Below, piece after piece: positions 2,237 to 28,829 of a stretch of 32,267 nucleotides of DNA. How positions within the stretch are numbered: the stretch's first letter is position 1; every line of letters starts with the position of its first letter. The DNA lies in the NCBI GenBank assembly GCA_009841075.1, contig VXMP01000026.1:1-32267 (forward strand), read 5' to 3'. Under the pieces are notes generated by a model that saw nothing but the letters and a program-made list of their open reading frames with translations, had not been told where the DNA came from and did no database searches. A program made the position numbers and the translations under genes. This DNA is from Acidimicrobiia bacterium. GTDB lineage: Bacteria; Actinomycetota; Acidimicrobiia; Spongiisociales; Spongiisociaceae.

Positions 2237-2902
2237 ATGAGCAGCGGTAACGCGTTCATACCACCTGATATTTATCAATACATTTTGGACGACACCCTTA
2301 GAGACGACCCTCTGTCCCGCCGCCTAAGAGAGGAGACGGCTCTTCTTCCCGAGTCCAACATGCAGATCGCCCCCGACCAAGGCCGGTTCATGGCCCTGCT
2401 GGTGAGGATGATGGGTGCAGAACGCATTATCGAGGTGGGGGTCTTCACCGGTTACAGCAGCCTCTGCATGGCCCGTGCACTACCCGAAACCGGCCTGCTG
2501 GTTGCCTGCGATGTGAGCGTCGAATACACCGACGTGGCGCGGCGATATTGGAAGCAGGCCGGTGTGTCGGATCGGATTGACCTGAGGATCGGCCCGGCCC
2601 TGGAGACCCTGGATGAGCTGATCCGGCAGGGTAGGGAGGAGGAGTTTGATCTGGCCTTCATCGACGCCGACAAGGAAAACTATCCCGACTACTACGAAAA
2701 ATGCCTGGTACTGGTCAGGCCCGGCGGCCTGTTGATAATCGACAACACTCTCTGGAGTGGAAGGGTGGCCGACCCGACCGATCAGGACCAGGTGACCTCC
2801 ACCATTCGCAACCTTAACGCCCGGGTCGGCCAGGATGACCGTCTGTCGGATGTGTCCCTGCTACCGATCGGAGACGGTCTGCTACTGGCTCGCAGGCGCT
2901 GA
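2237..2902 (+). CDS. SAM-dependent O-methyltransferase (Methyltransf_3 / CCoAMT-like)
   Basis: 221-aa cytosolic class I methyltransferase. Motif I is EVGVFTGYSS (about 66-75), the acidic SAM-ribose position is in VACDVS (89-94), and the metal/catalytic region is FIDADKENY (141-149) followed by IIDNTLWSG (167-175). These are hallmarks of the caffeoyl-CoA O-methyltransferase-like family, which uses a divalent metal. The length matches the family. The ATG at 2237 has a purine-rich AGAGAGGAA ribosome-binding site a few bases upstream. It lies 15 nt after holB and 16 nt before the channel gene. The natural acceptor is unknown; bacterial members act on catechol-like or other hydroxylated small molecules. 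Confidence 0.88.
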   Translation: MSSGNAFIPPDIYQYILDDTLRDDPLSRRLREETALLPESNMQIAPDQGRFMALLVRMMGAERIIEVGVFTGYSSLCMARALPETGLLVACDVSVEYTDVARRYWKQAGVSDRIDLRIGPALETLDELIRQGREEEFDLAFIDADKENYPDYYEKCLVLVRPGGLLIIDNTLWSGRVADPTDQDQVTSTIRNLNARVGQDDRLSDVSLLPIGDGLLLARRR

Positions 2903-2918
2903 TCCCCGCCCACCGGTT

Positions 2919-3944
2919 ATGCCGATCGAGCCCACCCTCATAAACTCCCAGGACTCGGCGGTTCGATGGAATCGTTTCCGGGCCGGTTTGGGCCTGCTGG
3001 TACTGGTGCTGGTGTCGGGGATGGTCGGATACACCCTGCTGGGCTTGACCTGGCTGGACGCCATCTACCAAACCGTCATCACCATTTCCACGGTCGGATA
3101 TCACGAGATCGGCCCGATCAGTACCCGATATCGGGTTTTCACCATCCTCCTCATTTTGTTCGGGACCGCCACCGCCCTATATACCCTTGGGGTTCTGATA
3201 GACACCATGTTCGAGGCCAGACTTACCGGCCACTTCCGGAGGCGACGTATGCAAAAACGAATCGATAGGTTAAAGGGGCACACCATCCTGTGCGGCTTCG
3301 GCCAGGTAGGGGAGGCTATATACGAGGAGCTGGTTAAATCGGGTCGGCAGGTGGTGGTGGTCGATAAGGTCGCCCCGGATTCGGGTCATTTCCCGCCCGA
3401 ATTGCTGATCGTATCCGGAGACGCCACCGATGACGAGGTGTTGACCAGGGCCGGTGTGGATCGGGCCACCGGTATGGTTCTTGCCCTCGACTCGGACGTG
3501 GACAATCTTTATGTGACCCTCTCGGCCCGTTCGGTCAACCCCAATATTTTCATCCTGGCTCGGGCCACCCAAAAGGACACCGTCCAAAAACTGGAACAGG
3601 CCGGTGCCGATCGGGTAGTCAACCCGCACCAGATCGGCGGTGCGCATATGGCCGCCCTGATCTCCCAGCCCGAGGCGATGGACTTCCTGGGCGAATTCCT
3701 GCGGGACGGCGACCTGATGGTATCCCATTGCCGGGTCTCTCCCGACTCCAGGTTGGTGGGCCGAACCATCGGAGAAATCCACATCCGCAACCGAACCGGC
3801 TGTTCTATCCTGGCCATCCGGCACCACGACACTTTCCTGACCAACCCCGACCTGGATACGGTGCTGGGAGCGGGGGATTTGCTCTTCGCTCTCGGTACCG
3901 AAGGCAACCTACAGCAGCTGCGGGTCCTCAACGAAACCGGGTAA
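2919..3944 (+). CDS. Two-TM potassium channel with cytosolic RCK/TrkA-N and TrkA-C domains
   Basis: 341-aa K+ channel subunit of the MthK/Kch type. Two membrane helices (about 23-41 and 73-93) flank a pore loop containing the selectivity filter TVGY (58-61). After a basic linker comes a Rossmann-type RCK domain with GFGQVG (126-131), then a TrkA-C-like domain (roughly 255-340). The open frame extends back into the methyltransferase gene, but that extra N-terminus is not channel-like. The ATG at 2919 leaves 16 nt after the upstream stop and gives the expected short cytoplasmic N-terminus. Ligand gating, for example by nucleotide or Ca2+, is a family property and not visible here. Confidence 0.9.
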   Translation: MPIEPTLINSQDSAVRWNRFRAGLGLLVLVLVSGMVGYTLLGLTWLDAIYQTVITISTVGYHEIGPISTRYRVFTILLILFGTATALYTLGVLIDTMFEARLTGHFRRRRMQKRIDRLKGHTILCGFGQVGEAIYEELVKSGRQVVVVDKVAPDSGHFPPELLIVSGDATDDEVLTRAGVDRATGMVLALDSDVDNLYVTLSARSVNPNIFILARATQKDTVQKLEQAGADRVVNPHQIGGAHMAALISQPEAMDFLGEFLRDGDLMVSHCRVSPDSRLVGRTIGEIHIRNRTGCSILAIRHHDTFLTNPDLDTVLGAGDLLFALGTEGNLQQLRVLNETG

Positions 3945-20165: not shown

Positions 20166-22658
20166 TTGTTTGAACGCTTTACCGACCGGGCTCGCCGGGT
20201 GGTGGTGCTTGCCCAGGAAGAGGCCCGGCTGCTCAACCACAATTACATCGGTACCGAGCACATCCTGTTGGGCCTGATCCATGAGGGCGAGGGTGTGGCC
20301 GCCAAAGGTCTGATGAACCTGGGTATAAGGTTGGACTCGGTGCGAAGCCAGGTAGTGGAGACCATTGGCCAGGGCCACCAGTCTCCTACAGGTCACATAC
20401 CTTTCACCCCCCGGGCGAAGAAGGTACTGGAGCTCAGCCTGAGAGAAGCCTTGCAGCTAGGCCACAATTACATCGGTACCGAACACATCCTGTTGGGCCT
20501 GATCCGTGAGGGCGACGGCGTGGCCGCCCAGGTGCTCGAAAAGCTGGGTGCCGACCTCCCCCGGGTACGGCACACCATCATCCAGCTGCTGTCCGGGGGT
20601 TCCGGTGACGAGCCGGTACGAACCGGTTCCGGGTCATCCCGGCGGGGTTCCTCCCAGTCGGGCTCCACCGTCTTGGATCAGTTCGGACGCAACCTCACCC
20701 AGATGGCCCGTGACAACGAACTTGATCCGGTGATCGGCCGACACACCGAGATCCAACGGGTCATGCAGATTCTTTCCCGGCGCTCCAAGAACAATCCGGT
20801 ACTGATCGGCGAGCCCGGGGTGGGCAAGACCGCCATAGTGGAGGGACTAGGGCAGCGTATCGTGTCGGGCGAAGTCCCGGACACCCTTGACACCAAGCAG
20901 ATCTACACCCTCGATCTTGGGTCTCTGGTGGCAGGCTCCCGGTACCGGGGCGACTTCGAGGAACGACTCAAGAAGGTGCTGAAAGAGATCAAGACCCGGG
21001 GCGACGTAGTCTTGTTCATAGACGAGATCCACACCTTGGTCGGTGCCGGTGCCGCCGAAGGTGCCATCGACGCCGCCAGCATCCTCAAACCCATGCTGGC
21101 CCGGGGTGAGCTCCAGACCATCGGGGCCACCACCCTGGAGGAGTACCGCAAATATCTGGAGAAGGACTCCGCCTTGGAGCGCCGTTTCCAACCCATCCAG
21201 GTAGAAGAGCCATCTGTGCCCGAGACGGTGCAGATACTGCACGGCCTCAAAGATCGCTACGAGGCCCATCATTCGGTCCGCTTCACCGACAGCGCTCTCC
21301 AAATGGCCGCCACCCTGGCCGACCGCTACATCTCGGATCGCTTCCTGCCCGATAAAGCCATCGATCTGATCGACGAGGCGGGCAGCCGTAATCGTATTTT
21401 CCGCGGCTCCTCCAGCGCCGGTATCCGCCAGATCGACGACCAGCTGAGTACGGTCCGCCAAGACAAGATGGCGGCCATCTCCGCCCAGCAGTTCGAGCGG
21501 GCCGCCCAGCTCCGCGATCAGGAGCGAGCCCTTGTATCCGACCGAGCCCGACACCAGGCCGAATCCTCTGATTCCACCACCGTGGTGGACGACACCCTGA
21601 TCGACGAGGACGAAATCGCCGATGTGCTCGCCCAATGGACCGGCATCCCGGTTTATCGGCTTACCGAGGAGGAAACCGCCCGTCTGGTCCACATGGAAGA
21701 AGAGCTCCACAAGCGGATCATCGGCCAGCACGACGGCATATCGGCGGTGAGTCGGGCCATTCGCAGGACCCGGGCCGGCCTTAAAGACCCCAAGCGACCC
21801 AGCGGTTCCTTCATCTTCCTGGGGCCGTCCGGCGTGGGCAAGACGGAGACCGCCAAAGCCCTGGCCGAGTTCCTGTTCGGAGACGAAGACTCCCTTATCC
21901 AGCTTGACATGTCCGAGTACATGGAGAAGCACACCGTCAGCCGCCTGGTCGGGTCGCCGCCCGGCTATGTGGGCTACGACGAAGGAGGCCAGCTCACCGA
22001 GGCCGTGCGCCGTAAGCCCTTCTCGGTGGTGCTGTTCGACGAAATGGAAAAGGCCCATCCCGACGTCTTCAACACCCTCCTCCAAATCCTCGAAGACGGT
22101 CGCCTCACCGACGCCCAGGGCCGGGTGGTGGATTTCAAGAACACCGTGATCATCATGACCTCCAACGTGGGCTCCGAAACCCTGCGTAAGAAATCGGTGG
22201 GCTTCCAGCAGGACAGCGACGAGCTCAGCTACGAGAAGATGAAGGAGAAGCTGACAGACAACCTGAAGAAGACCTTCCGCCCCGAGTTCCTAAACCGCCT
22301 CGACGAGGTGATCGTCTTCCATCAGCTGACCGTTGACGAGGTCAAACAGATAGTGGATCTGATGCTGGTCCGAGATCGCGAGCAGCTGGCCACCCAGTCG
22401 CTCGACTTGGTGCTGACCGACTCCGCCAAGACCTTACTGGTCGAAAAGGGCTACGACCGAGACCTGGGTGCCCGACCCCTGCGTCGGGCCATCCAGCGCT
22501 ATCTGGAGGACCCTCTGTCCGAGCAGGTTCTCCTCGGGGAATACACGCCCGGCAGCACCATCGTGGTGGATCGCAGCGCCGAAGACGACTCTCTCGTGTT
22601 CGAGATGGTGGACACACCCGACAGCCTTCCACTTGATCTGGTCGATTCCGGCTCCTGA
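20166..22658 (+). CDS. clpC: ATP-dependent Clp protease ATP-binding subunit ClpC
   Basis: 830-aa Hsp100 unfoldase that feeds ClpP. It has two Clp_N repeats (about 1-145) with [13 protein letters not shown] in each. AAA-1 has Walker A GEPGVGKT (215-222). A UVR-type middle motif ([18 protein letters not shown], near residue 440) is present, and AAA-2 has GPSGVGKTE and a C-terminal D2-small domain. The two Clp_N motifs are 225 bp apart and match over 44 bp with one difference (20237-20280 and 20462-20505). The start is TTG at 20166. A TATAGT hexamer at 20082-20087 could be a -10 but lacks a clear -35. Confidence 0.95.
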
Positions 22659-22782
22659 AGCAAGTCCCGAAAAGTTATGGATTTCGGTTAGCGCTCCGAG
22701 TCGAAAAAGCGTAGAATGCCCTAATCCAACCTATCCGAAATCCCTCTGAGGAGAAACCCCCCACCAGAAAAGGATCTTGATT

Positions 22783-24861
22783 ATGCGTATGAAGTCACGA
22801 TGGTTGATCTTGGTAGCCGCTTTAGGTCTGCTGCTAGCGGCCTGCGGAGATTCGGAAGAAACCGAAGAACCTACTGCGACCACCGAGGCTTCCGCCCCGG
22901 TCATAACCGAGTCGGCCCCGGACACTACCGCTCCGATGGGTGAGCCGATTTCGGTGGGTTTGTCTTATGATATTGGTGGTCGTGGGGATCAGTCGTTTAA
23001 TGATTCGGCTGCGGCTGGTTTGGATCGGGCGGCGGCTGAGTTGGGTGTTTCTACTTCTGAGGCTTCGGCTAATGAGGATGGGACTAATCGTGAGGAGATG
23101 TTGGCGCTTCAGGCTTCGGAGGGTTCTGATGTGGTGATTGGGGTTGGGTTTTTGTTTGCTGAGCCGATGGCTGCGGTTGCGGCGGAGTTTCCTGAGACGA
23201 ATTTCGCGATTGTGGATTCGGAGGTGGAAGCTCCGAATGTGGCCGGTTTGACGTTTGCTGAGGAGCAGGGGTCGTTTTTGGTGGGTGTGGCGGCTGCTTT
23301 GAAGACGGAGTCAAACAAGGTTGGGTTTATTGGTGGGGTGAATATTCCGTTGATTCATGCGTTTGAGGCGGGTTTTTTGGCTGGTGTTCAGGCGGTGGAT
23401 CCGGGGATTGAGATTTTGTCGCAGTATGTGACGGAGCCTCCGAATTTTGATGGGTTTACTGATCCGGCTGCCGGTCGGGTGATTGGTCAGTCGATGTTTG
23501 AGCAGGGGGCGGATATTGTTTATCACGCGGCTGGTGGTACTGGTGGTGGTTTGTTCCAGGCGGCTAAGGATTATTCGGAGGCGAATGATACGCATGTTTG
23601 GGCGATTGGGGTGGATTCGGATCAGTATCTGACTGCTCCTGATTTTCAGGATTATATTTTGACTTCGATGTTGAAGAGGGTTGATGTTGCGGTGTATTCG
23701 ACTATTGAGTCGGTTCAGAATGGGTCGTTTTCTGGTGGGGTGAATGTGTTTGATTTGTCTGTGGATGGGGTGGGTTATTCGACTTCTGGTGGTTATGTGG
23801 ATGATATTGTTCCGCAGTTGGAGGAGTATAAGAGCCGGATCGTGTCGGGTGAGATCACCGTAAGCCGAGACCCCACCAACCTGGTCGCAACGCCTCCGCC
23901 TCCGATGGGTGAGCCGATTTCGGTGGGTTTGTCTTATGATATTGGTGGTCGTGGGGATCAGTCGTTTAATGATTCGGCTGCGGCTGGTTTGGATCGGGCG
24001 GCGGCTGAGTTGGGTGTTTCTACTTCTGAGGCTTCGGCTAATGAGGATGGGACTAATCGTGAGGAGATGTTGGCGCTTCAGGCTTCGGAGGGTTCTGATG
24101 TGGTGATTGGGGTTGGGTTTTTGTTTGCTGAGCCGATGGCTGCGGTTGCGGCGGAGTTTCCTGAGACGAATTTCGCGATTGTGGATTCGGAGGTGGAAGC
24201 TCCGAATGTGGCCGGTTTGACGTTTGCTGAGGAGCAGGGGTCGTTTTTGGTGGGTGTGGCGGCTGCTTTGAAGACGGAGTCAAACAAGGTTGGGTTTATT
24301 GGTGGGGTGAATATTCCGTTGATTCATGCGTTTGAGGCGGGTTTTTTGGCTGGTGTTCAGGCGGTGGATCCGGGGATTGAGATTTTGTCGCAGTATGTGA
24401 CGGAGCCTCCGAATTTTGATGGGTTTACTGATCCGGCTGCCGGTCGGGTGATTGGTCAGTCGATGTTTGAGCAGGGGGCGGATATTGTTTATCACGCGGC
24501 TGGTGGTACTGGTGGTGGTTTGTTCCAGGCGGCTAAGGATTATTCGGAGGCGAATGATACGCATGTTTGGGCGATTGGGGTGGATTCGGATCAGTATCTG
24601 ACTGCTCCTGATTTTCAGGATTATATTTTGACTTCGATGTTGAAGAGGGTTGATGTTGCGGTGTATTCGACTATTGAGTCGGTTCAGAATGGGTCGTTTT
24701 CTGGTGGGGTGAATGTGTTTGATTTGTCTGTGGATGGGGTGGGTTATTCGACTTCTGGTGGTTATGTGGATGATATTGTTCCGCAGTTGGAGGAGTATAA
24801 GAGCCGGATCGTGTCGGGTGAGATCACCGTAAGCCGAGACCCCACCGTCTACCAGGGCTAA
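22783..24861 (+). CDS. Tandem-domain BMP/PnrA-family substrate-binding lipoprotein
   Basis: Binding protein of the ABC importer encoded next to it. The BMP family mostly binds nucleosides. The ATG at 22783 has AAAAGGA 8 nt upstream; it gives 692 aa with a lipoprotein signal peptide (LLLAAC, lipidated Cys21) and a Thr/Glu-rich tether (22-51). Two complete BMP domains follow (about 52-367 and 375-690), each with GGRGDQSFND, NFAIVD and VGFIGG motifs. They are identical in sequence and separated by a short Pro-rich linker (NLVATPPPP). Typical family members have one domain and about 340 aa. The domains use G- or T-ending codons almost only, unlike the flanks. See findings. Confidence 0.93.
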   Translation: MRMKSRWLILVAALGLLLAACGDSEETEEPTATTEASAPVITESAPDTTAPMGEPISVGLSYDIGGRGDQSFNDSAAAGLDRAAAELGVSTSEASANEDGTNREEMLALQASEGSDVVIGVGFLFAEPMAAVAAEFPETNFAIVDSEVEAPNVAGLTFAEEQGSFLVGVAAALKTESNKVGFIGGVNIPLIHAFEAGFLAGVQAVDPGIEILSQYVTEPPNFDGFTDPAAGRVIGQSMFEQGADIVYHAAGGTGGGLFQAAKDYSEANDTHVWAIGVDSDQYLTAPDFQDYILTSMLKRVDVAVYSTIESVQNGSFSGGVNVFDLSVDGVGYSTSGGYVDDIVPQLEEYKSRIVSGEITVSRDPTNLVATPPPPMGEPISVGLSYDIGGRGDQSFNDSAAAGLDRAAAELGVSTSEASANEDGTNREEMLALQASEGSDVVIGVGFLFAEPMAAVAAEFPETNFAIVDSEVEAPNVAGLTFAEEQGSFLVGVAAALKTESNKVGFIGGVNIPLIHAFEAGFLAGVQAVDPGIEILSQYVTEPPNFDGFTDPAAGRVIGQSMFEQGADIVYHAAGGTGGGLFQAAKDYSEANDTHVWAIGVDSDQYLTAPDFQDYILTSMLKRVDVAVYSTIESVQNGSFSGGVNVFDLSVDGVGYSTSGGYVDDIVPQLEEYKSRIVSGEITVSRDPTVYQG
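22931..23877 (+). repeat. Perfect direct repeat, copy 1 (947 bp)
   Basis: This segment is identical base for base, by line-by-line reading, to 23900-24846. The period is 969 bp (323 codons), so the duplication is in frame. It covers the whole first BMP domain plus 45 bp of ordinary-codon sequence at its 3' end. Flanks differ: a signal-peptide tether before it, and the 22-bp linker after it. Confidence 0.97.
23900..24846 (+). repeat. Perfect direct repeat, copy 2 (947 bp)
   Basis: Second copy of 22931-23877. It ends after CCCACC and the frame then continues only VYQG and a stop, whereas copy 1 continues into the linker NLVATPPPP. Confidence 0.97.
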
Positions 24862-24919: not shown

Positions 24920-26428
24920 ATGAAAACGGCGGTTCGGCTTCAGGGGATAACCAAGCGTTTCCCCGGCGTAATCGCCAACGACAACGTAAACCTAACCGTG
25001 GAAGAGGGCGAGATCCACGCCATCTGCGGCGAAAACGGGGCGGGCAAGTCCACCCTGATGAAAATCCTCTACGGCATGCAGCCACCGGACGAGGGTCAAA
25101 TCAAGGTGCTGGGCGAGCAAATGGACTTCTCCTCGCCCAAGGAGGCCATCGAGTCGGGCATCGGCATGGTCCACCAGCACTTTATGCTCGCCGACAACCT
25201 TTCGGTCTTGGAAAATGTCATCCTCGGTGCCGAGCCATCGTCCGGGCCGGTAATCGATTTCGCCACCGCCCGTACCCGACTCCAGGAACTGGGCGAAGCT
25301 TACGGGCTGGAGCTGGATCCGGACGATCCGGTAGAAACCCTGGAGGTAGGCGAGCGCCAGCGCATCGAGATCATCAAGATCCTCTACCGAGGTGCCCGCA
25401 TCCTGATCCTGGACGAACCCACCGCCGTCCTCGTCCCCCAGGAGGTGGAAGAGCTGTTCCGCAATATGCGGGACCTGAAGGCCGAGGGCCACACCCTCAT
25501 CTTCATCGACCACAAGCTCGACGAGGTACTCGAGATCGCCGACACCATCACGGTGCTGCGCCAAGGCAGATCGGTGGCCACCGTGAAACCGGAGGACGTC
25601 ACCGCCCACGACCTGGCCGAGCTGATGGTAGGTGCCGAGCTCCCCACCCCGGAAGCTCGGGAGAAAACCGAAAAAGATCAGGTCGTGATCGAGGTCGAGA
25701 ACCTCTCCGCCGAGGACGAGGAAGGGGTAACCCGACTGCGCAACGTCGCTTTCCAGGTCCGTTCCGGCGAGATCGTGGGCATCGCCGGCGTAGAAGGCAA
25801 CGGTCAGCTGGAGCTGGTCGAGGCCATCCTGGGTATCGCCCACGTGACCTCCGGTGCCATCCGACTCCACGATCAGGACATCAGCGAATGGCCGGTTCGG
25901 CGACGCCGGGAGGCCGGCCTCGGCTACATTCCCGAGGATCGTCACCGCCGGGGTCTCCTGCTGCCCGCCCCGGTATGGGAGAACGGCATCCTCGGTCATC
26001 AGACCTCCAAGAGGTTCACCAAAGGCATCTGGATAGACGAGCAGTCGAGCGTCAAGTTCGCCGACGAGGTTATCGAACGTTTCGATGTCCGCACCCCCGG
26101 CCCGAGAACCCCGGTTCACGCACTATCCGGAGGCAACCAGCAGAAGCTGGTTGTGGGAAGGGAGCTGGCCACCGACTGTAATCCGCTCATCGCCGCCCAT
26201 CCGACCCGAGGTATCGACGTGGGCTCCCAGGCGGCGGTTTGGGAGGAACTGCGCCGAGCCCGGGCGGCGGGTCTGGCGGTGCTGCTGATCTCCGCCGACC
26301 TCCACGAGCTGTTGGGCCTGAGCGACCTGTTGCTGGTGATGCTGCGGGGAGAGATCGTTGCCCGACTTGACCCCACCGATGTCACCCTCCGGGAGCTGGG
26401 TGCCTACATGACCGGAGCGGCCGCATGA
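24920..26428 (+). CDS. ABC transporter ATPase, double-NBD, nucleoside/simple-sugar type (YufO-like)
   Basis: 502-aa protein with two nucleotide-binding domains. NBD1 has Walker A GENGAGKST (37-45), a degenerate signature VGERQRIEI, and Walker B ILILDEPTAVL. NBD2 has a degenerate Walker A (GVEGNGQ), signature LSGGNQQK, and NPLIAAHPTRGID in place of a classic Walker B. This asymmetry is typical of the RbsA/YufO/NupA subfamily. Its neighbours (BMP lipoprotein and two permeases) make it the motor of a BMP importer. The ATG at 24920 follows directly on the stop of a short frame (24893-24919) and has no good Shine-Dalgarno site. It overlaps the first permease by ATGA. Confidence 0.94.
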   Translation: MKTAVRLQGITKRFPGVIANDNVNLTVEEGEIHAICGENGAGKSTLMKILYGMQPPDEGQIKVLGEQMDFSSPKEAIESGIGMVHQHFMLADNLSVLENVILGAEPSSGPVIDFATARTRLQELGEAYGLELDPDDPVETLEVGERQRIEIIKILYRGARILILDEPTAVLVPQEVEELFRNMRDLKAEGHTLIFIDHKLDEVLEIADTITVLRQGRSVATVKPEDVTAHDLAELMVGAELPTPEAREKTEKDQVVIEVENLSAEDEEGVTRLRNVAFQVRSGEIVGIAGVEGNGQLELVEAILGIAHVTSGAIRLHDQDISEWPVRRRREAGLGYIPEDRHRRGLLLPAPVWENGILGHQTSKRFTKGIWIDEQSSVKFADEVIERFDVRTPGPRTPVHALSGGNQQKLVVGRELATDCNPLIAAHPTRGIDVGSQAAVWEELRRARAAGLAVLLISADLHELLGLSDLLLVMLRGEIVARLDPTDVTLRELGAYMTGAAA

Positions 26429-27546
26429 CCTGGGCGGCCACCAGACGGGTAGTAGGCCCTCCCTTCATCGCCGTAGCCCTGGCCATGCTGGTGGCCTCGT
26501 TGATCCTGGTGATTTCCGGTGCGGACGCCTGGGCGGCCTTCCAAAACGTTCTCGAATACGGTACCCGTCTGGAAACCCTCGTCGAAGCCTCCAACCGGGC
26601 GATACCGCTCTACCTGTCCGGGATCGCCTTCGGCATCGCCATGCGGATGAACCTGTTCCAGATCGGCGTGGAGGGCCAATACATCCTGGCCGCCTTCTTC
26701 GCCGCCTGGGTGGGTGCCGGAGTGGGAACCCTCTTTCCGCCTCTCCACGTGGCCATCATCCTGGTGACAGCCATGGCGGCCGGTGCCTTCTGGGCGGGCC
26801 TGGCCGGCTTCATGAAGGTGACCCGTAACGTCCATGAGGTCATCTCCACCATCATGCTCAACGCCATCGCCGTCAGTGGGGTGGTGGCCTACCTGTTGAG
26901 CCGCTGGAAAATCGAATCGGCCACCCTCGACACCCGGCTGGGCGACATCGCCCCGAGCGGCTGGTTCCCCAGCCTGAACCCGATCCTTGAGCTTGCGACC
27001 CGGGAGATCAAGCGGGTGGAGCTGAGCGGCTTTATATTGATCGCCGCCCTGGTCGGCCTGGTCTACTACCTGTTCATCAACCGCACCCGGGTCGGTTATG
27101 ACATGCGGGCTACCGGTGCCAACCCCTGGGCGGCCGAGGCCGGCGGCGTGCCCCCCAAGCGGACCATAATCCTGGCCATGCTGCTGAGCGGTGCCGTAGC
27201 CGGTCTGGTAGGAATGGCCGACCTACTCAGCGACCAGTATTTCTACAGCCTGCGCTTCCCGCGGGGGTTGGGCTTCACCGGCATCGCGGTCGCTCTACTG
27301 GGGCGGAACCATGCCCTGGGGGTGGCGTTCGCGGCCTTCGCCTTCGGATGGCTGGAACGCGCCTCGGGCATCCTGGAGGTCAGGGGAGACGCTCCCCGTG
27401 AGATCGTCACCATCATGACCGGGGTGATCATCCTGTTTGCCGTCATCGCCTACGCCCTCGCCCAGCGCCGGGCCCGGGCCGAGGCGGCCGCAGCAGCGGC
27501 GGCGCAGGTAACCACCGGAGAAGGACACGGAAGGGGAGTACCGTGA
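26425..27546 (+). CDS. ABC transporter permease 1 (YufP/NupB-like, BPD_transp_2)
   Basis: 373-aa integral membrane protein with about nine to ten hydrophobic helices. The conserved permease region includes FQIGVEGQYILAAFFAAWVG near residues 77-96, VHEVISTIMLNAIA near 140, and the cytoplasmic VGYDMRATGANPWAAE coupling segment near 230. These are hallmarks of nucleoside or simple-sugar importers of the BPD_transp_2 family. The C-terminal tail is Ala- and Arg-rich and probably cytoplasmic. It overlaps the ATPase (ATGA) and the second permease (GTGA), so the three are one translational unit. Confidence 0.93.
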   Translation: MTWAATRRVVGPPFIAVALAMLVASLILVISGADAWAAFQNVLEYGTRLETLVEASNRAIPLYLSGIAFGIAMRMNLFQIGVEGQYILAAFFAAWVGAGVGTLFPPLHVAIILVTAMAAGAFWAGLAGFMKVTRNVHEVISTIMLNAIAVSGVVAYLLSRWKIESATLDTRLGDIAPSGWFPSLNPILELATREIKRVELSGFILIAALVGLVYYLFINRTRVGYDMRATGANPWAAEAGGVPPKRTIILAMLLSGAVAGLVGMADLLSDQYFYSLRFPRGLGFTGIAVALLGRNHALGVAFAAFAFGWLERASGILEVRGDAPREIVTIMTGVIILFAVIAYALAQRRARAEAAAAAAAQVTTGEGHGRGVP

Positions 27547-28829
27547 GTGCTATAACCGATAACCGGATGCTCGGCCTGCCGGGTGGCAACCTGATCCGAG
27601 GACGCACCCGCTGGATCATCTACGGACTGGTCGGCATCTTCATGTTGTCGATCACCCAACAGGTCGCCAAGCTCCCCACCGACGACCTCACCTCCAGCGG
27701 CACCTGGTCGATCGCCCTGGCCTGGTCGGTTCCCATCCTCCTGGCCGGTCTGGGCGGCATCTTCTCCGAGCGTTCCGGGGTGGTGAACATCGGACTGGAG
27801 GGCATGATGATCCTCGGCACCTGGTGGGGTGCCTATGGAACGGTAGTGGTCGGCCCCTGGTACGGGATGCTGCTGGCGCTGATCGCCGGGGCGGTGGGCG
27901 GCCTGATCATGGCGATAGCCGCCGTGGGATTCAACGTAGACCATATCATCGCCGGAGTCGCCATCAACCTCATGGCTCCGGGGCTAAACCGGTTCCTGTC
28001 CAACATCCACTTCTCCGACCGGGGCGGGTCCCTAACCCAGTCACCGGCCATCAGCGGGGTGGGTAACTTCACCGTTCCGGTTCTGGCTGGAGGAACCGCC
28101 TTCGGCTGGGATAGCCCCGACGCCCTCGGTGCCCTGGAACGGGCCGACTGGTTCTTCGTCTCCGACCTGGCCGGCGTGCTCCGTGGTTTCGTCTTCCAGA
28201 TTTCGTGGCTGACCCTGGTGGCCTACCTGGTGGTTCCCTTAAGCATCTTCGTCCTCTGGAGAACCCGTTTCGGCCTCCGTCTCCGAAGCTGCGGCGAGCA
28301 CCCCCACGCCGCCGACTCCCTCGGGGTCAACGTCTACAAATACAAGTACTACGGCGTGATCATCAGCGGTGCCCTGGCCGGATTCGGCGGAGGTTTCCTG
28401 GCAGTCCAGCTGTCGGGCCTCTACCGGCAGGGTCAAACCCTGGGCAAAGGCTTCGTCGGCCTGGCCACCGTCATCTTCGGCAACTGGAACCCCTTCGGTG
28501 CCGCCCGAGGAGCGCTGCTGTTCGGCTTCACCGAAACCCTCCGCCTAAGGGACGAAAACGCCGCCCACGGCCTACTGCTATTGGCCATGATCGGCATCGG
28601 CCTGTTCGTACTGTGGCGATTGTTCCGACGGAAGGGCTATATAGGAACCCTCCAGCTGGCCATAGTGGCTATAGCCATCGGCTTCTGGTACCTCAACACC
28701 GCCGACGTCCCCAACCAGCTCCCCGCCATCACCCCCCACATAGCCGTGCTGGTGGTACTCCTATTCGCCACCTCCCGTCTCCGCCCCCCCGCCGCCGACG
28801 GCCTCCCCTACCGCAAAGGCGAAAACTAA
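27543..28829 (+). CDS. ABC transporter permease 2 (YufQ/NupC-like, BPD_transp_2)
   Basis: 428-aa second permease. It has the family block SERSGVVNIGLEGMMILGTWWG (near residues 77-98), FNVDHIIAGVAINLMAPGLNRFL, and the coupling segment RFGLRLRSCGEHPHAADSLGV. YufQ-type proteins are usually about 310-320 aa. The extra length here comes from an N-terminal helix, a longer loop (about 160-215) and two added C-terminal hydrophobic segments. The GTG start at 27543 overlaps the upstream TGA. The 3' end overlaps the stop of the convergent P450 gene by 4 nt, leaving no room for a separate terminator. Confidence 0.92.
   Translation: MSAITDNRMLGLPGGNLIRGRTRWIIYGLVGIFMLSITQQVAKLPTDDLTSSGTWSIALAWSVPILLAGLGGIFSERSGVVNIGLEGMMILGTWWGAYGTVVVGPWYGMLLALIAGAVGGLIMAIAAVGFNVDHIIAGVAINLMAPGLNRFLSNIHFSDRGGSLTQSPAISGVGNFTVPVLAGGTAFGWDSPDALGALERADWFFVSDLAGVLRGFVFQISWLTLVAYLVVPLSIFVLWRTRFGLRLRSCGEHPHAADSLGVNVYKYKYYGVIISGALAGFGGGFLAVQLSGLYRQGQTLGKGFVGLATVIFGNWNPFGAARGALLFGFTETLRLRDENAAHGLLLLAMIGIGLFVLWRLFRRKGYIGTLQLAIVAIAIGFWYLNTADVPNQLPAITPHIAVLVVLLFATSRLRPPAADGLPYRKGEN

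Follow-up and report, generated by a model that had tools for sequence, protein, structure and literature searches.

The window, that is, the whole 32,267-nt stretch of DNA analysed here, comes from an uncultured actinobacterium and contains a gene in which the same BMP/PnrA-type binding domain appears twice behind one lipid anchor. This raises the question of whether such a tandem receptor is real, how its two halves came to be identical, and what two receptors on one anchor would do beside a single translocator.

The tandem gene and its operon

The preliminary description had proposed a single signal peptide and lipobox, two complete BMP domains of the same sequence, a Pro-rich linker and one adjoining permease/ATPase set, and all of these elements were recovered in the following features:

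20166..22658, + strand: ClpC, conserved upstream of the tandem gene and a marker of the locus (Pfam; synteny)
22783..24861, + strand: tandem BMP/PnrA lipoprotein gene, 692 aa (open reading frame and PF02608 matches)
22783..22845, + strand: signal peptide and lipobox with lipidated Cys21 (translation; Cys column conserved in the family alignment)
22846..22930, + strand: Thr/Pro/Ala-rich leader from the lipid anchor to domain A, predicted to be disordered (pLDDT < 50)
22931..23877, + strand: exact repeat, copy 1, 947 nt (DNA comparison)
22939..23865, + strand: BMP domain A (PF02608; PnrA fold)
23866..23907, + strand: Pro-rich interdomain linker (translation; low pLDDT at 367-376)
23900..24846, + strand: exact repeat, copy 2, 947 nt (DNA comparison)
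23908..24834, + strand: BMP domain B, identical to A (PF02608; sequence comparison)
24920..26428, + strand: ABC ATPase with two nucleotide-binding domains (ABC_tran) in one chain (Pfam)
26425..27546, + strand: permease 1 (BPD_transp_2; Pfam)
27543..28829, + strand: permease 2 (BPD_transp_2; Pfam)

The frame runs from an ATG at 22783 to the stop at 24861, with an alternative in-frame TTG possible at 22777, and the sole lipobox is LLLAAC, with Cys21. PF02608 matches two stretches of the protein (E 7e-125 for the whole chain), and the score of 416 bits, against a gathering score of 24.1, places it in the PnrA/BMP receptor family. The residues NLVATPPPP lie between domains A and B. The two 947-nt copies have an offset of 969 and 22 unrepeated nt between them, a match far beyond chance; no further copy of this repeat was found in the 2.3-Mb, 90-contig assembly of the window genome, which contains three other single BMP matches. 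Directly 3' of the tandem gene are exactly one ATPase gene and two permease genes, the PnrA/BMP-type setting of a lipoprotein adjoining an ATPase and two BPD_transp_2 permeases.

Occurrence in relatives, duplication history and codon bias

Within the window genome's family the order LysS-IspB-ClpC-[BMPx2]-ATPase-permease-permease is kept wherever the contigs of relatives reach. A search of relatives for two PF02608 domains behind one lipobox, suggested in the preliminary description, found a complete one-frame tandem in seven other genomes of the family (G001, G003, G008, G010, G011, G012 and G014). All eight complete cases, the window included, share the gene order and have exactly two domains, the tandem is retained across at least three genera, and no one- or three-domain version was seen at the ClpC locus among the genomes of this family. 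The same description had named relatives with always a single domain, and this version as a product of assembly, as the result that would overturn it; relatives instead have the tandem, in G001 on a 3.0-Mb contig. In G007, a second contig of G012 (C36), G006 (gap), G009 and G002 the tandem is interrupted by contig ends or gaps. Since the tandem and its gene order are kept in relatives, an artefact is excluded for the architecture, and the tandem is a trait of the family and not an assembly quirk, while the count of exactly two copies in the window strain is provisional, as assemblers can miscount exact tandem repeats.

Regarding the wider distribution, a full-length tandem profile gave full-length BMP-BMP matches only in the window's family, both in a sample of the class (395 genomes) and in a sample of the phylum (396 genomes), with two candidates scored per genome, so that rare BMP-BMP cases may be missed, and with the L058 genome (SB0668_bin_6) absent from the samples. 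The plasmid search returned only distant BMP genes (<60% identity), and in the best matches both halves of the query aligned to one single-domain place. Outside the family, a single-domain BMP is present at the equivalent operon in L203-L206. L058 contains another tandem BMP with a linker shorter than that of the family tandem; it is probably a separate duplication, because in the tree its two halves form a cluster of their own (100/100) outside the family tandem, and single-domain proteins are placed nearer to the family tandem than L058 is (95/87).

The two halves within a genome are 100% identical in the window and, in those relatives where neither domain is truncated, 84.8 to 97.6% identical. 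In the relatives the halves form mosaics, with tracts free of differences and ends that have diverged, in which the C-terminal tails alone are paralogue-specific. Differences are limited to one over about 480 nt in G001 and to zero over about 780 nt in G012, about 540 nt in G008 and about 300 nt in G011, with far more diverged flanks in all four. When the differences were shuffled over the variable sites, none of 20,000 shuffles reached the difference-free runs observed in G001, G008, G011 and G012 (p about 5e-5), and the same permutation test gave p 1e-4 for G010 and G014 and 2e-3 for G003. In the core (columns 480-840) the mean A/B distance within a genome is 0.040 vs. 0.118 for A-A between genomes, and in the last 90 nt this relation is reversed (0.203 for A/B within a genome vs. 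0.130 for the same half between genomes). Only four alignment columns split all A from all B, every one of them in the tail, and 63 columns are the same within each genome and different between genomes. These distances and columns indicate that the duplication is old, predating these genera in an ancestor of the family, and that its core has been homogenised by intragenic gene conversion. In the window genome the tail is homogenised too, and the complete A/B match there marks the far end of a gene conversion process that is still active. The mosaics show homogenisation inside one gene whose protein has two equal halves, and do so in several lineages; the persistence of recombinogenic direct repeats suggests selection for two copies.

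Codon statistics set part of the repeat apart from its surroundings, and the strongest and second strongest G/T biases of the sampled genome are:

22930..23832, repeated at 23899-24801, + strand: stretch with almost only G or T at third codon positions (codon statistics)
L168:10101-11174, contig C49 of the window genome, - strand: PBP_like_2 (PstS-like) lipoprotein (codon bias)

The first has a GT3 of 0.95 at about codons 50-350 of each copy, with sharp edges inside the gene, compared with 0.32-0.43 in the neighbouring genes and a mean of 0.484 (sd 0.058) in 362 sampled open reading frames from 523 kb of stretches of the window genome, from which it lies about seven standard deviations away. 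The bias of the PstS-like gene (0.70) is confined to mid-gene. The G001 tandem shares the tendency more weakly (0.71 and 0.68 vs. 0.46-0.51 in its neighbours), and the bias is absent in the tandems of the other relatives compared. The bias might be caused by very high expression. Horizontal import of a domain with odd codons was rejected because the identity of this domain to its relatives (82-85% at the protein level) resembles that of its neighbours (80-81% for the ATPase, 77-84% for the permeases), and pure C-to-T deamination was rejected because G and T also swap at four-fold sites. Nor is it shared generally by the binding proteins encoded in this genome: its other BMP genes and its Peripla_BP_6 genes have unremarkable codon usage. 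Elsewhere in the window, a potassium channel-like gene with a regulatory domain (2835-3944) has third-position frequencies unusual for the genome (T3 0.34, C3 0.23) and was perhaps acquired.

Multi-domain binding lipoproteins in Acidimicrobiia

The window genome has a second tandem, a 776-aa lipoprotein with two identical OpuAC domains (L276:4244-6571, - strand, contig C89), which has one lipobox, an Ala/Glu-rich spacer ahead of the first domain and a repeat exact over 923 nt, and which adjoins a permease and an ATPase with a CBS match. In its G001 counterpart the repeat is exact over 905 nt, and the OpuAC tandem regions of the two genomes differ by 24-30%. Further tandem OpuAC genes, occurring in several families, have halves identical at 100% in G008, 97.0% in G003, 99.7% in G108, 100% in G341, 94.5% in G110 (gene cut by a contig end) and 99.1% in G351, a one-contig genome. 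The OpuAC tandems show the same pattern as the BMP tandems. Two tandem OpuAC matches of equal score were also noted in G109 (G109:C1:72575-74548 and G109:C4:47619-49592), one with a third OpuAC nearby.

In other Acidimicrobiia a single lipobox precedes as many as four binding domains of different kinds. G037, from another family, encodes at its ClpC-linked BMP locus a lipoprotein that combines BMP and Phosphonate-bd (L202:5212-7305, - strand), and in G383 a complete 1425-aa lipoprotein contains Peripla_BP_6, OpuAC, Bmp and Phosphonate-bd (L279:1637-5911, - strand). Strings of BMP, SBP_bac_3 and OpuAC were detected in G358 and G365, and of BMP and SBP_bac_3 in G341 and G376, the latter also with the start of a Peripla_BP_6; each of these strings (L197, L199, L200 and L201, with OpuAC in L200 and L201 and the Peripla_BP_6 start in L199) runs off a contig end and may be longer than the part seen. 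In a separate observation, one frame at L060:2028-5927 encodes a Ser/Thr kinase-like protein (the kinase judged by eye) whose far end is formed by a BMP domain, possibly a nucleoside-sensing kinase.

We lean slightly towards a general, previously undescribed design in Acidimicrobiia in which several ABC binding domains per lipid anchor, either identical and homogenised (BMP, OpuAC) or of mixed families, serve one or several translocators. If so, a single anchor would supply one translocator doubly or several of them in parallel, and the multi-family strings raise the question of whether more than one transporter can be fed from a single tether.

Predicted mechanism, rival explanations and known systems

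The domains match the PnrA structure 2fqw by sequence (E 1.7e-46), as well as other nucleoside-binding structures, and by fold 6y9u, 7x0r and 2fqw; the motif DIGGRGDQSFN is unchanged in 18/18 family domains, so that a PnrA-type fold and a conserved nucleoside-site motif occur together. In BmpD an Asp and an Asn hydrogen-bond the base and two Phe stack (PMC7093131), and in our reading of the alignment these base contacts would map onto DIGGRGDQSFN. AlphaFold2 predicts two well-folded domains with low confidence in the leader (1-52) and the linker (367-376), and a pTM of 0.51, with no defined relative placement of A and B. Each domain is predicted to bind one purine nucleoside. Because either domain could dock on the single permease pair, two loaded receptors per anchor would be offered to one translocator; binding sites per secreted chain would be doubled, and the two sites on an anchor are expected to be independent and equivalent. 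From this anatomy, one tether would present two receptors to one translocator. On the whole we consider it probable that the locus encodes a nucleoside-type importer with two equivalent PnrA-type domains per anchor and one translocator, derived from an old duplication homogenised by conversion.

Other explanations were weighed against this. In a copy-number-variable array, recombination would expand and contract the tandem, two would be just the assembled state, and the purpose, if any, would be receptor dosage. The exact 947-nt repeat would fit, as would the related contigs that break within the gene (G007, G012:C36, the G006 gap, G009 and G002), since near-identical repeats do this to assemblies; with exactly two domains in 8/8 complete cases, A- and B-specific tails in relatives and no one- or three-domain case seen at the locus within the family, such an array is unlikely. 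A little less likely again is a neutral relic, a duplication homogenised by gene conversion that brings no functional advantage over one domain: gene conversion alone accounts for the identity, and one domain suffices for the outside relatives at the equivalent operon (L203-L206), but the tandem is kept in at least three genera, the second tandem BMP (L058) is probably of separate origin, and tandem OpuAC genes recur across several families.

Cleavage of a polyprotein at the linker after secretion, yielding one anchored and one free receptor, would agree with a linker that is Pro-rich, exposed and predicted to be poorly ordered. It is nevertheless improbable, as the linkers have no obvious conserved cleavage motif beyond the Pro run and a cell lacking an outer membrane would not retain a receptor released from its anchor. 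Least credible of all, to the point of near exclusion, is an assembly error that duplicated a gene with one domain; the assembly is fragmented (90 contigs) and the copies are exact, but the 22-nt linker joins them as no single-copy gene could supply, and copies that have diverged are present in the seven other complete tandems, of which one lies on a 3.0-Mb contig.

Regarding known systems, domain and operon are of the ordinary PnrA/BMP kind. PnrA of T. pallidum, BmpD of B. burgdorferi and PnrA of S. pneumoniae share with the window protein the family, the fold, the lipobox and the ATPase with two permeases, but have one domain per lipoprotein where the window protein has two identical ones. 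The open-access literature yielded no description of a BMP lipoprotein with tandem domains or of tandem receptors that are homogenised, and nothing on a tandem BMP gene was found in the literature on sponge Acidimicrobiia; within the open-access literature, the earlier statement that tandem domains are known elsewhere, as in GlnPQ, and that no described tandem BMP was known therefore holds. The tandem is new for BMP/PnrA receptors and not for nutrient importers generally; beyond the earlier reading, it is a family trait under ongoing gene conversion and belongs with a broader tendency to combine several binding domains in one lipoprotein.

The L276 OpuAC tandem resembles the window protein in its one lipobox, two identical domains and own ATPase and permease, and differs in its ligand family and in the Ala/Glu-rich spacer before the first domain. 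In OpuA of L. lactis, each of two copies of a chain that is joined to the transmembrane part contributes one domain, and the two domains, unlike those of the window protein, are not a tandem within one lipoprotein. The likeness lies in the two binding domains per translocator (PMC11065425).

In GlnPQ of L. lactis one chain likewise contains two tandem binding domains, which are connected by a flexible linker (14 aa; PMC8025302) and serve one translocator, and these domains bind ligand independently of each other (PMC8025302). These are SBP_bac_3 domains of differing specificity fused to the transmembrane domain, whereas the window protein has PF02608 domains only, identical to each other, on a lipoprotein separate from the permease genes. 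Because the GlnPQ domains are fused to the transporter, differ from one another and belong to a different family, the window tandem is not of the GlnPQ kind, though by analogy it may work alike. Tandem binding domains have been studied mostly in GlnPQ, where they differ in ligand and are sited on the transporter itself; since the domains of the window protein are identical and their anchor is separate from the transporter, it becomes testable how uptake depends on receptor number by itself.
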